Origin: Hyella patelloides LEGE 07179
Lineage (GTDB): Bacteria > Cyanobacteriota > Cyanobacteriia > Cyanobacteriales > Xenococcaceae
Direction of reading: 5' to 3'
Length of the DNA: 35,832 bases
Assembly: GCF_900659865.1 (NCBI RefSeq)
Contig: NZ_LR213807.1
Location: 1-35,832 of the forward strand
Shown: positions 30,478 to 32,994 of the stretch, piece after piece
Numbering within the stretch: position 1 is the stretch's first letter
Layout: each line of letters begins with the position of its first letter
Program-made: the position numbers and the translations under genes
The notes under the pieces: model-generated
Database searches by the model: none
What the model was told of the DNA's origin: nothing
Seen by the model: the letters and a program-made list of their open reading frames with translations, nothing else

Positions 30478-32082
30478 CTAAACTTGACCTGTTGCCAACA
30501 TTTGAACCAAACGAGGTACACCAGGATCGAAACCCGCTAAATCCCAAGATAAATCATCTTTGGGGTCTACCAAACTAATTTTATAGGGTGTTAAAGTGAC
30601 ATAAACAGCTTTAACATTAGGGTTAACTTTTTGGCGATACTCTTTCAAGGCTACACTGGGATGTTTGCGTCCAGCCCAACTTTCGCAGTCCGTCCAAAAG
30701 CAAATAACATCTGCTTTGAATTTATTTTTAATCGCCCAGTCATAAGCTACAGAAGCATCAGTAGCACCAAAATTATGGCTACGAGCTTTTTTGAGAGCAG
30801 AACTAAAGGAATCTCGGCGAGAAATACCCAAATCAATAAATTTTGTAGAAAAACCACGAATAGCATAGTTTTTCTCGGCTTTAGCTGTTACTAAAGCCAT
30901 AGTAGTAGCAATTTCACAACAAGTTAAACCCACAGAGTCGGACACATAGCTAGACATTGAGCCAGAGATATCAACCCCGTGGAGAAACACCTTATTAGTA
31001 GGCTCTACCGTTTCAAAAGATAATTCCAAAGTTTTTTCTAGAATATCCACAATGCGGGAAACAGGAGTCCAAGTTTTTTTACTTCGTCCCACTCTCCCGC
31101 CAGATTTGTAGGTTTTGAGAGCTTTTAAAACATCAATAGGATGAATACGTCCCCGACGGAGATATTTTTGGTTATTTAAAACATTTTCCAAACGGTCGAG
31201 ATTTTCGACACTATCAACACGTAACACATCTAATTGAGTCAGAGAACCCAAATTACGCAACATAGCACCGATAGGCATTTCATTAAACAATAATTGCCAT
31301 GCTTGCCGATCCATTTTACCCACAGGGGCAGCCATTTCATGAGTCAAACGACCGTTGATAATAGCTTCATGGGTGCGGTTAGGATTGCGTTTTAACCATT
31401 CATACCACCAGATTTGCGCTAAAGCTTCCGAAGGAATTTCACTAGGTAAGCCTTCCCAACCATTAACCACCCAACTGAATAAGCGATCGTGATCTACTGT
31501 TGGTGGTTTAACATGAAATAGTCTGAGAATATCTCGGTGTTGGAAGCCGTGGCGTTGTTGGTACTTCAGTAATTGATAAGCTAAACCCTTAACATCATCG
31601 CGAGATAGCCATGCTGTACCCACTTCACGAATAATTTTACCAAAACCTCTGAAAGACTTGGTGTAATTTAACCATTCATAAAAGTGGCTACCAGTACGCA
31701 CTACTTGGGGAAAAATTTCCCGAAAAGCTCTTTTTGCTTCTGGTGTTTCTCCCATAGAAAGCAATACTAAAGCTAAAATCGGCGCACTATTATTAATAGA
31801 GCGTCCATCGCTAGCATAGACAATTTCTTCGGCTACACGACTAGGATTTTCCTTAATAGCTTGTTTGATAACGTTGATAAAGTCTTCGGTTAATTCTCTT
31901 TTATTGGCATAGTAAGTACTTTGGGCTGTCCCAATAAGCAGACAACGCCGTAACATTTGCCAAACACCCGCATCAAACATCCAACCGCCAGAGCGACCTT
32001 GAATCATCTCAGTTTCTCGCTCTGGAAGGGGTTGAGATTGGGGTGTTGTTTTATTTTTGTTGGTGAAAAAACGGTAATTCAT
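30478..32082 (-). CDS. rsr: TROVE domain Ro60-like RNA-binding protein (Rsr)
   Basis: 534-residue orthologue of the Ro autoantigen. The TROVE HEAT-repeat ring spans about residues 25-355, including GGWMFDAGVWQMLRRCLLIG, the ASDGRSINNSAPILALVLLS segment and the basic KTYKSGGRVGRSKKTW stretch. A von Willebrand A domain follows at about 360-534 with a complete MIDAS: D371-I-S-G-S-M (D371, S373, S375), the GATDAS loop and WTDCESW. In bacteria, Ro proteins bind Y RNAs on the outer surface and misfolded RNA ends in the ring, and can tether Y RNA to PNPase. GGAGG lies five bases before the ATG. A candidate Y RNA lies about 100 bases upstream on the same strand. No rtcB or PNPase gene is adjacent. 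Confidence 0.93.
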   Translation of the reverse strand: MNYRFFTNKNKTTPQSQPLPERETEMIQGRSGGWMFDAGVWQMLRRCLLIGTAQSTYYANKRELTEDFINVIKQAIKENPSRVAEEIVYASDGRSINNSAPILALVLLSMGETPEAKRAFREIFPQVVRTGSHFYEWLNYTKSFRGFGKIIREVGTAWLSRDDVKGLAYQLLKYQQRHGFQHRDILRLFHVKPPTVDHDRLFSWVVNGWEGLPSEIPSEALAQIWWYEWLKRNPNRTHEAIINGRLTHEMAAPVGKMDRQAWQLLFNEMPIGAMLRNLGSLTQLDVLRVDSVENLDRLENVLNNQKYLRRGRIHPIDVLKALKTYKSGGRVGRSKKTWTPVSRIVDILEKTLELSFETVEPTNKVFLHGVDISGSMSSYVSDSVGLTCCEIATTMALVTAKAEKNYAIRGFSTKFIDLGISRRDSFSSALKKARSHNFGATDASVAYDWAIKNKFKADVICFWTDCESWAGRKHPSVALKEYRQKVNPNVKAVYVTLTPYKISLVDPKDDLSWDLAGFDPGVPRLVQMLATGQV

Positions 32083-32179
32083 TATTACCTCCAGCCCTCA
32101 ACCGGGCAAATTAATTAAATGTGTTTTTAGTTATTAGCCATCAGCTATTAGCCTTTCAAGCTTAAGATTAATTGAATGA

Positions 32180-32311
32180 CTGTGAGCTTAAAACTTTCAC
32201 TAAAATTGACTTGGTTTGGTGGTTAACCCCACCAATCGACGGAGTGGGACTTGAACCAGTAACATTATTATACTACAAAATAACTACATAAAGTCGAAGC
32301 CTTACTCACAG
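32180..32311 (-). ncRNA. Candidate Y RNA (YrlA-like) upstream of the Ro gene
   Basis: Read on the minus strand, the ends pair: CTGTGAG (32311-32305) with CTCACAG (32186-32180). The stem continues as AAGGCTTC (32303-32296) with GAAAGTTTT (32198-32190), using two G-U pairs and one bulge, and then as GACTT/AAGTC (32295-32291 with 32212-32208). The interior has a tRNA T-loop-like GGTTCAAGTCC (32257-32247), an acceptor-like TCGAC/GTCGA pairing (32297-32293 with 32240-32236; an alternative to part of the long stem) and a 7-bp hairpin, TTGGTGG-GGTTAA-CCACCAA (32235-32216). A long closing stem plus tRNA-like module next to rsr is the known pattern of bacterial Y RNAs. The T-arm stem is only two pairs, so a tRNA-gene fragment is the main alternative. 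Confidence 0.4.
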
Positions 32312-32994
32312 CTACATTTAGCCAAAGTGAGTAAAAAGTGAATAATATTAAATCCGATTAGGAGAGGTTCGGAAGAGGTTTGGGGGATTTAGGGAGCATT
32401 AATTTATCGATATTGTTACTTAAGAGTTCTTTTGTAATTCATAACTATTAACTTAACTAGCCAAAAATTCCCCCCAAGTAGCATAAATGAAAATGTTAGT
32501 AGCGATCGCAGCGAAGAAAACCTCAATCACATTACCAATAATTGAACCAATTACAATGCCTATACTGACTTGAAAAGCCTGTCTAATTTTTTATTCTAAG
32601 TCTAAACCCTCTTGTTGAGATATCATTGGCTCTCGAGATCGCAGATCTCAAACAACTTCTTGTTTCGGGTTCATTTGGACTCGCTGTCTATCTTAAGTTA
32701 CTAAAAGTCAATAGAATTTTCTGTAACGTTACCGAAATAGTTGAACAAGCCAAAAACAGCAAACACTAACCCAATTATCAACCGAACAACTTATTTATCC
32801 ACTGTCTCTTTTTACAACTCTCTGTCTGATAGTCAATACTTGAAAGGATCGTATCACGATGGTTTAAGTACAATTACGTATTTGATGTTACTTCTAAAAA
32901 CAAATTAAAATTTGCTGAGGATATCTGCTTAAAATCGATCTTTAATGAAGATAATATAATTTAATCAGGTCTTCAGTTGTTAAATTTGAGTTTT
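32312..32994. other. AT-rich spacer upstream of the Ro gene and PPC gene
   Basis: The divergent region between the Ro/Y RNA unit and the plus-strand PPC-domain gene. It contains a broken small membrane ORF on the minus strand at 32453-32626 and a palindromic CTCGAGATCGCAGATCTC stretch near 32630. No intact gene is seen. Confidence 0.35.
32453..32626 (-). pseudogene. Small membrane protein ORF interrupted by an in-frame stop
   Basis: An ATG at 32626 begins MISQQEGLDLE, then a TAA, and the same frame continues as KIRQAFQVSIGIVIG followed by SIIGNVIEVFFAAIATNIFI and YATWGEFLAS, stopping at 32453. The post-stop part has Gly-spaced hydrophobic residues of one or two membrane helices and ends in a natural-looking tail; no alternative start precedes it. 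Total is 58 codons including both stops. One base change would restore a 56-residue membrane protein. The family is not recognised; a sequencing error or chance frame remains possible. Confidence 0.35.

Follow-up and report, generated by a model that had tools for sequence, protein, structure and literature searches.

A probable Y RNA gene remnant upstream of Ro in Hyella patelloides, and tRNA-shaped Y RNAs upstream of Ro in related cyanobacteria

Among described RNAs, the closest to those analyzed here is YrlA (RF02553; 6CU1), which is likewise found beside Ro and combines tRNA-like D and T arms with a Ro-binding stem. YrlA (6CU1) has been reported to be circularly permuted relative to tRNA (PMC11472068), and its Rfam alignment runs in the order Ro strand, T arm, closed acceptor, D arm, Ro strand. 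The cyanobacterial units described below keep the same circular order of parts. They lie beside the Ro/Rsr gene (78 of 80 loci; 23 of 24 genomes) and have a tRNA-like part with D and T arms. However, whereas YrlA has its T arm before the D arm, a closed acceptor hairpin and the Ro stem at its ends, the cyanobacterial units are predicted to be open at the acceptor and closed at the Y stem, which is internal, with the D arm preceding the T arm. The Ro60-tethering Y RNAs of Deinococcus and of animals (RYPER, with PNPase) resemble the units in joining a Ro-binding stem to a separate effector part (PMC8394870, PMC8058203). With tRNA (RF00005) the units share cloverleaf order, a 7- or 8-bp acceptor, U8, and D and T arms; CCA is present in about half, and more than half of those tested have an anticodon loop of 7 nt bearing U33 and a purine at 37. 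They differ from it in a Y module of about 50 nt that breaks the anticodon stem (or the D-loop), and an uninterrupted anticodon arm is not found in them. To our knowledge, no Deinococcus or animal Y RNA has a tRNA cloverleaf with a free acceptor end.

The window, the whole stretch of 35,832 nucleotides of Hyella patelloides LEGE 07179 DNA that was analyzed, encodes a true Ro60. The ORF at 30478-32082 matches vWA_Ro60 (E 2.8e-38) and TROVE (E 4e-15) in Pfam, and the NCBIfam model RNA-bind_Rsr at 310.5 bits, which is under its equivalog cut-off of 900. No RtcB gene was found on the Ro contig of this genome; RtcB genes are present on contigs C55 and C94. A search of IMG/VR for relatives of the window Ro gave 11 stretches that fit a pattern, none of which was confirmed. 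The features of the Ro gene and of the region just before it are as follows.

30478..32082, minus strand: Ro60/Rsr protein gene, 534 aa (Pfam and NCBIfam matches)
32094..32107, minus strand: small hairpin GCCC-N6-GGGC (by eye from the sequence, without statistics)
32180..32311, minus strand: segment first proposed as a Y RNA; not a conserved RNA (fold z, R1 covariance model, relatives)
32305-32311, minus strand: CTGTGAG, 5' arm of the proposed closing stem
32180-32186, minus strand: CTCACAG, 3' arm of the proposed closing stem
32296-32303, minus strand: AAGGCTTC, continuation of that stem as named earlier
32190-32198, minus strand: GAAAGTTTT, continuation of that stem as named earlier
32247-32257, minus strand: GGTTCAAGTCC, T-loop
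32293-32297 / 32236-32240, minus strand: TCGAC / GTCGA, proposed acceptor-like pairing
32216-32235, minus strand: 7-bp hairpin
32237..32257, minus strand: probable 3' remnant of a tRNA-shaped Y RNA, with T-loop, 3' strand of the T-stem and 3' strand of the acceptor (TCCGTCG) (blastn and alignment)
32211..32236, minus strand: probable 3' flank of the former unit, similar to L006 (second half of the blastn match)
32284..32345, minus strand: dispersed repeat, probably replacing the 5' part of the former Y RNA (copies in the same genome)

The GCCC..GGGC hairpin directly precedes the GGAGG ribosome-binding site of Ro, and such a pair also stands at the matching place in the Ro loci of three relatives (L006, L007 and L008); a part in translational control of Ro is possible.

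The initial annotation had taken segment 32180-32311, which lies on the same strand as the Ro gene and about 100 bases ahead of its start at 32082, for a complete Y RNA whose paired ends form the Ro-binding stem. All motifs that it named are present on the minus strand. At -33.4 kcal/mol the segment is somewhat more stably folded than expected by chance (z -2.30; 4 of 200 shuffles equal or better). Position, orientation, this moderate folding and a real T-loop all speak for a working Y RNA. Against it, Rfam at gathering and permissive thresholds gave no Y RNA or tRNA match in the window, ARAGORN found no tRNA there, and R1, a covariance model of the intact units described below, gave no match over the window at E<=10. 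When R1 was run locally and unfiltered over 451 bases of the window, 11 scraps were returned, the best of them (7.6 bits) elsewhere than the T-loop, which itself scored 4.3 bits. The 5' arm of the closing stem lies inside a dispersed repeat, and neither CTGTGAG nor CTCACAG is present in any of the Ro-upstream regions of 80 relatives (450 nt per region, shorter at contig ends). The stem is not a conserved Ro-binding stem; one of its arms comes from the repeat and the other from what follows a truncated Y RNA on the 3' side. The T-stem has only two pairs, its 5' strand being broken, as had been conceded from the start. It is very unlikely that the segment is itself a working Y RNA; what it holds is a 3' tRNA-gene-like fragment with no conserved closing stem and no support from relatives.

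The T-loop at 32247-32257, recognized at the outset as tRNA-like, is a real piece of Y RNA, homologous to the T-loop of intact units. The 3' strand of the acceptor-like part is homologous to them as well, whereas the TCGAC/GTCGA pairing is not confirmed as an RNA feature. By blastn, window positions 32211-32257 match L006:467-513 at 81% over 47 nt, L006 being the nearest relative by Ro (87% identity). The unit in L006 ends at position 487; it therefore contributes about 21 nt to the match, and the other 26 come from the flank on its 3' side. The remnant at 32237-32257 is nearest to units with a Leu-like body. In alignment with L006, L007, L009 and L010, everything 5' of the T-loop is lost or unalignable in the window. 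Further copies of the repeat at 32284-32345 are found on other contigs of the genome, at C118:1616-1677 (89%) and C367:5280-5321 (93%), and CTGTGAG is invariant across the three copies. On this sequence evidence the window segment is very probably the remnant of a decayed, truncated Y RNA gene. The C118 copy of the repeat is overlapped by the start of a 343-aa ORF (L004:592-1623, minus strand), to which neither Pfam nor NCBIfam assigned a family and whose PHROG matches were all weak. We also considered the repeat as an integrase attachment end, but this was unsupported, the overlapping ORF having no family.

Intact units were identified in relatives. Eighty Ro loci (L006-L085) were analyzed, the best 80 of 172 related stretches in genome contigs, with Ro 75-87% identical and with some upstream flanks ending at contig ends. 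A script that required a T arm, a GG-TTATC Y motif at most 75 nt upstream of it and a 7-nt acceptor partner with at least 6 pairs yielded 216 candidates; in 209 the acceptor partner was present. Removal of 3 overlapping parses left 206 units, which lie upstream of Ro in 78 of the 80 loci, at 1-7 per locus. The expectation of a Y RNA beside Ro thus holds for the gene family, though not for the segment in the window. Searching the same loci with R1 gave 325 matches at E<=0.01, and among the 300 listed some lie downstream of Ro. No unit was found by script in L062 or L081; R1 gave a weak upstream match in the former (22.5 bits) and none in the latter. In 6 of 8 loci scanned the Rfam tRNA model gave long matches (119-136 nt, 43-57 bits), and the units listed, at 37-57 bits, exceed the RF00005 gathering score of 29 bits. 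YrlA (RF02553) matches reached 27-41 bits in 5 of 8 loci scanned and 31-34 bits in another scan, below the gathering score of 69 bits. No tRNA was called by ARAGORN in the 40 of the 80 loci on which it was run.

The typical unit appears as a cloverleaf whose parts follow one another as in tRNA (acceptor, D arm, anticodon arm, T arm, acceptor). Its acceptor end is open, and the Y module, about 50 nt long, lies within the 5' strand of the anticodon stem. The Y stem-loop, which has a tight loop, is placed after two or three nucleotides of that strand, and the 7-nt anticodon loop can therefore still form behind it in more than half of the units tested. Variant units carry the Y module in the D-loop (e.g. 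L010:587), and in 5 detected by script the Y strands are ordered differently.

We examined this structure in an alignment of 29 diverse units, A1, taken from 130 that passed a first anticodon-arm filter; 26 were picked by script, one was dropped and four were added by hand. The structure comprises an acceptor of 7 bp, a D arm of 4, an anticodon stem of 2+3, Y helices of 5+3+4 and a T arm of 5. Over the 29 sequences, 95.9% of 948 cells are paired compared to 81.8% in shuffles, two-sided changes occur in 24 of 33 pairs compared to 14.2, and the covariation score is 0.473 compared to 0.203; controls with slid partners pair at 37-51%. Units had been preselected for pairing (acceptor >=6/7, D arm, T arm, anticodon stem >=4/5), so that covariation in the acceptor, D, T and anticodon helices is partly by construction. 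The inner Y helix covaries, with double changes in 4 of 4 pairs. RNAalifold alone predicted the acceptor, the D and T arms and the three Y helices, with double changes in 18 of 26 pairs; it did not predict the anticodon stem. Folding of single sequences gave the whole structure in none of four units tested (z -0.76 to -2.80), the acceptor and T arm in all four, and in L011 also the D arm and a 4-bp anticodon hairpin.

The arrays could also be read in another register, as permuted YrlA RNAs with the Ro stem at their ends and the acceptor closed via the spacer between units. This is the form seen in other bacteria and phages, where non-cyanobacterial units have, by eye, a closed acceptor, and full-length Rfam YrlA matches in the cyanobacterial loci do run across two neighbouring units. 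In the preselected set the 3' acceptor strand pairs at >=6/7 with the 5' strand of the next unit in 77 of 128 neighbours, and such frequent pairing means that acceptor pairing alone fits either register. As the comparison between neighbours was unclean in that set, the test was repeated without selection on the acceptor, on 157 units anchored by the T arm, the Y motif and a perfectly paired D arm. All 7 acceptor pairs form in 139 of these 157, whereas shuffling of the partners gives 56 on average and 66 at most. Among 79 neighbouring pairs, perfect 7/7 pairing occurs in 65 within units and only 12 between them; at >=6/7 the contrast is weaker, with 69 within and 56 between. Perfect acceptors thus argue against the permuted register, as do a tight-looped and covarying inner Y helix, spacers between parsed units that range from 7 to 668 nt (median 61), and CCA after the acceptor in 89 of 182 units. 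Loci with a single unit by script number 12, and they help little against the permuted register. Among the matches listed, 9 of these have further upstream R1 matches, the flanks of two more are only 233 and 166 nt long, and L055 alone combines one unit with a complete flank of 1.5 kb. We consider that register unlikely, and the un-permuted build described above very probably correct, as far as sequence can tell.

The anticodon arm was analyzed in 182 distinct units having an acceptor and a D arm, read through the insert and without selection on the anticodon; counts from this set come from related sequences and are not independent events. A perfect 5-bp stem with a 7-nt loop is found in 103 of the 182 and is absent from 79. 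Loops of 4, 5, 6, 8, 9, 10 and 11 nt gave 2, 2, 11, 1, 1, 5 and 0 perfect stems, respectively. Shuffling the 5' anticodon nucleotides among units gave a mean of 43.6 perfect stems (maximum 55), a background that remains this high because the units are related. Position 33 is T in 102 of the 103 loops and position 37 a purine in all 103, which are, at the level of sequence, hallmarks of true anticodon loops. The commonest anticodons are AGG (25), GCC (13), TCC (10) and GTT (9), followed by CAT (7), CTT, TGG and TTT (6 each) and others. Within a locus they all differ in 34 of the 34 loci with at least two, compared to 29.1 +- 2.0 in random draws, these loci being related by descent. The ends of the units resemble those of a tRNA: CCA stands one or two bases past the 7-bp acceptor in the 89 units noted above and is not at the expected place in 93, and G-1 opposite C73 makes an 8-bp acceptor stem in 139 of 182. 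When the insert was removed at the expected cut, ARAGORN called 153 of 186 units as tRNAs, compared to 1 of 186 uncut; shifted cuts gave 20-180 calls, so that this excision does not fix the boundary of the insert, for which we depend on the comparison of loop lengths given above.

Inserts of a similar kind have been published under another name. In 2017, 'group I introns' of 22-49 nt were reported in cyanobacterial tRNA genes, and those of tRNA-Gly(TCC) and tRNA-Lys(CTT) share, according to that report, the motifs CTTGxCT, AAGxC, GAAGAAT and GG (PMC5733544). Compared by these reported motifs alone, they match the Y module, in the same phylum and in the same kind of gene; they are read there as group I introns, unlike our reading of them as Y modules (PMC5733544). 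The units could accordingly be proposed to be intron-containing tRNA genes. Excision of the Y module, with RtcB as a possible ligase, would then yield a tRNA together with a Y RNA that is either separate or circular. Lengths of 22-49 nt are far too short for a group I intron, and the Gly and Lys inserts are, to judge by their motifs, probably Y modules. Without the module, 103 of 182 units regain a 5-bp anticodon stem, most of them having U33 and a purine at position 37. A joint rise of the TROVE and RtcB genes is reported from one cyanobacterial coculture (PMC11423583), and probably two genes of the kind described here have been published as intron-bearing tRNAs (PMC5733544). Against splicing, the module of some units sits in the D-loop or has its strands ordered differently, the commonest anticodon, AGG, has A34 (25 of 103), and the window's genome has its own ordinary tRNAs. 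We know of no splicing endonuclease of such a type in bacteria. The best-scoring ordinary tRNA reaches a score of only 61-76% against a unit, and the two agree in anticodon in 1 of 19 cases, in a crude comparison of 19 of the 130 filtered units (9 loci) with 38 ordinary tRNAs of the window's genome rather than of each unit's own. Recent capture of cognate tRNA genes was likewise unsupported by these crude figures. Splicing thus seems quite improbable to us. TROVE transcripts have also been reported to rise after erythromycin in Chlorogloeopsis fritschii PCC 9212 (PMC6424891).

The association of the units with Ro extends beyond the 80 loci. R1 was run with strict filters over 292 genomes of the phylum and matched 24 of them at E<=1e-9. 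In the same setting, Ro protein was found at E<=1e-20 in 27 of 292 genomes, which include all 24 RNA-positive ones (Fisher p 3e-32). RNA and Ro are on one contig in 23 of the 24, the exception being the window's genome. No R1 match was found in three Ro-positive genomes (G127, G021 and G041), whose Ro is distant (33% identity); such absences are soft because of the strict filters. In G044, with Ro at 38% identity, the RNA lies about 2.5 kb downstream of Ro. This co-occurrence, together with covariation, unselected acceptor pairing and U33 with a purine at 37, argues against the units being decaying tRNA genes into which an unrelated repeat was inserted, with no role alongside Ro. Their chimeric look and the decay of the window copy would fit that proposal, to which we nevertheless give hardly any credence.

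The window's genome has an intact array of its own, apart from Ro:

C30:31732-33356 (= L108:5733-7357): intact array of 8 units, 98-133 nt each, in the window's genome (G000) (R1)

Its neighbouring genes encode a Lon substrate-binding-domain protein and a nucleoside hydrolase. In this genome R1 also matches ordinary tRNAs. With Ro and this array apart, the window would hold only the scar of a former neighbour. Two copies of the Y motif seem to lie within or next to one C30 unit (32533-32665). A separate tRNA array in the same genome (C9:56882-58220, L191) includes three tRNA-like genes of 118-121 nt; these have other structured-looking inserts, without the Y motif. In Picosynechococcus PCC 7002, a strain well suited to laboratory work, positions 2542-2943 of plasmid pAQ7 (NC_010474.1, L148) hold three units upstream of the TROVE gene SYNPCC7002_RS15900. 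No protein gene is listed there in the PLSDB table, which omits RNA genes; the original record may annotate something there.

What we observe in the intact units is their sequence, covariation, unselected pairing, tRNA-like ends and tandem order, an anticodon loop preserved in more than half of those tested, and their linkage and co-occurrence with Ro. Taken as a whole, an explanation that combines a remnant in the window with intact tRNA-shaped Y RNAs upstream of Ro in relatives and on C30 is likely to be right. How such RNAs would work can be outlined tentatively. The transcript would be trimmed at both acceptor ends by the tRNA machinery, through RNase P, tRNA 3' processing and CCA addition. 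Ro would hold the Y arm, while the tRNA-shaped body would dock on a handler of tRNAs such as PNPase, the CCA enzyme, or tRNA-modifying or tRNA-damaging enzymes. Tandem units with different anticodons would give Ro a set of tRNA look-alikes. Known YrlA is the same ring opened elsewhere, with its ends at the Ro stem and its acceptor closed by a loop. Binding of Rsr/Ro by the Y module is putative, from linkage and from likeness to YrlA, and we likewise infer transcription, processing by tRNA enzymes and recruitment of a partner. This outline of function is somewhat more likely to need revision than to stand in full.

The intact units suggest how Ro proteins and transfer RNA biology connect. With a free and often CCA-bearing acceptor and a kept anticodon loop, the un-permuted form makes the role of the tRNA-like half of Y RNAs testable, since one can ask in laboratory cyanobacteria which of the steps known from tRNA a Y RNA undergoes, be it trimming, CCA addition, charging, modification or cleavage. 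It also connects tRNA with permuted YrlA, each being the same ring opened at a different point. The arrays might, more speculatively, constitute a repertoire, in which complete tRNA look-alikes with different anticodon loops stand by each Ro gene; we think this rather doubtful. If true, the repertoire would let Ro sample or guard isoacceptor-specific events such as those involving anticodon nucleases, tRNA damage and repair, or synthetases, and the anticodon arm in Y RNAs, including the permuted ones of phages and actinobacteria, would be a working end, not a relic. The published reading of short inserts in cyanobacterial tRNAs as 'group I introns' is probably corrected by these results, and non-protein stretches upstream of TROVE genes, such as that of pAQ7, gain a meaning. 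R1 provides a covariance model for finding more such RNAs. Among the titles and openings of abstracts listed in searches of the literature we found no description of Y RNAs in un-permuted tRNA order, which is weak evidence of novelty, and we regard the novelty of this form as provisional.

Ten non-cyanobacterial Ro loci, on plasmids and in phages, were compared, and RF02553 gave subthreshold matches of 33-52 bits in 8 of them. Several of these permuted RNAs keep, by eye, an interrupted anticodon arm, with loops such as ATTGGGA, CTGTTAA and CTGATAA. Their acceptor hairpins are, also by eye, closed by TTCG or by loops containing ACCAC or CCACCA. The latter loops, seen by eye in a handful of sequences, would fit a descent of permuted genes from tandem un-permuted ones. 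In the Gordonia phages Sixama (L197) and Mareelih (L199), the Ro gene is followed by a tRNA cluster and a tmRNA match (annotated in Mareelih), and these clusters include a permuted YrlA-like RNA. The annotated tRNA-Leu(gag) of Mareelih overlaps the YrlA match and may be a misread half of a Y RNA. In a third Gordonia phage, Cashline (L198), positions 1325-1452 give a weak match to the Rfam family ceN72-3_ceN74-2, a nematode sRNA (31.8 bits, gathering score 38). This match covers the YrlA-like RNA and is possibly an echo of a shared Y stem.
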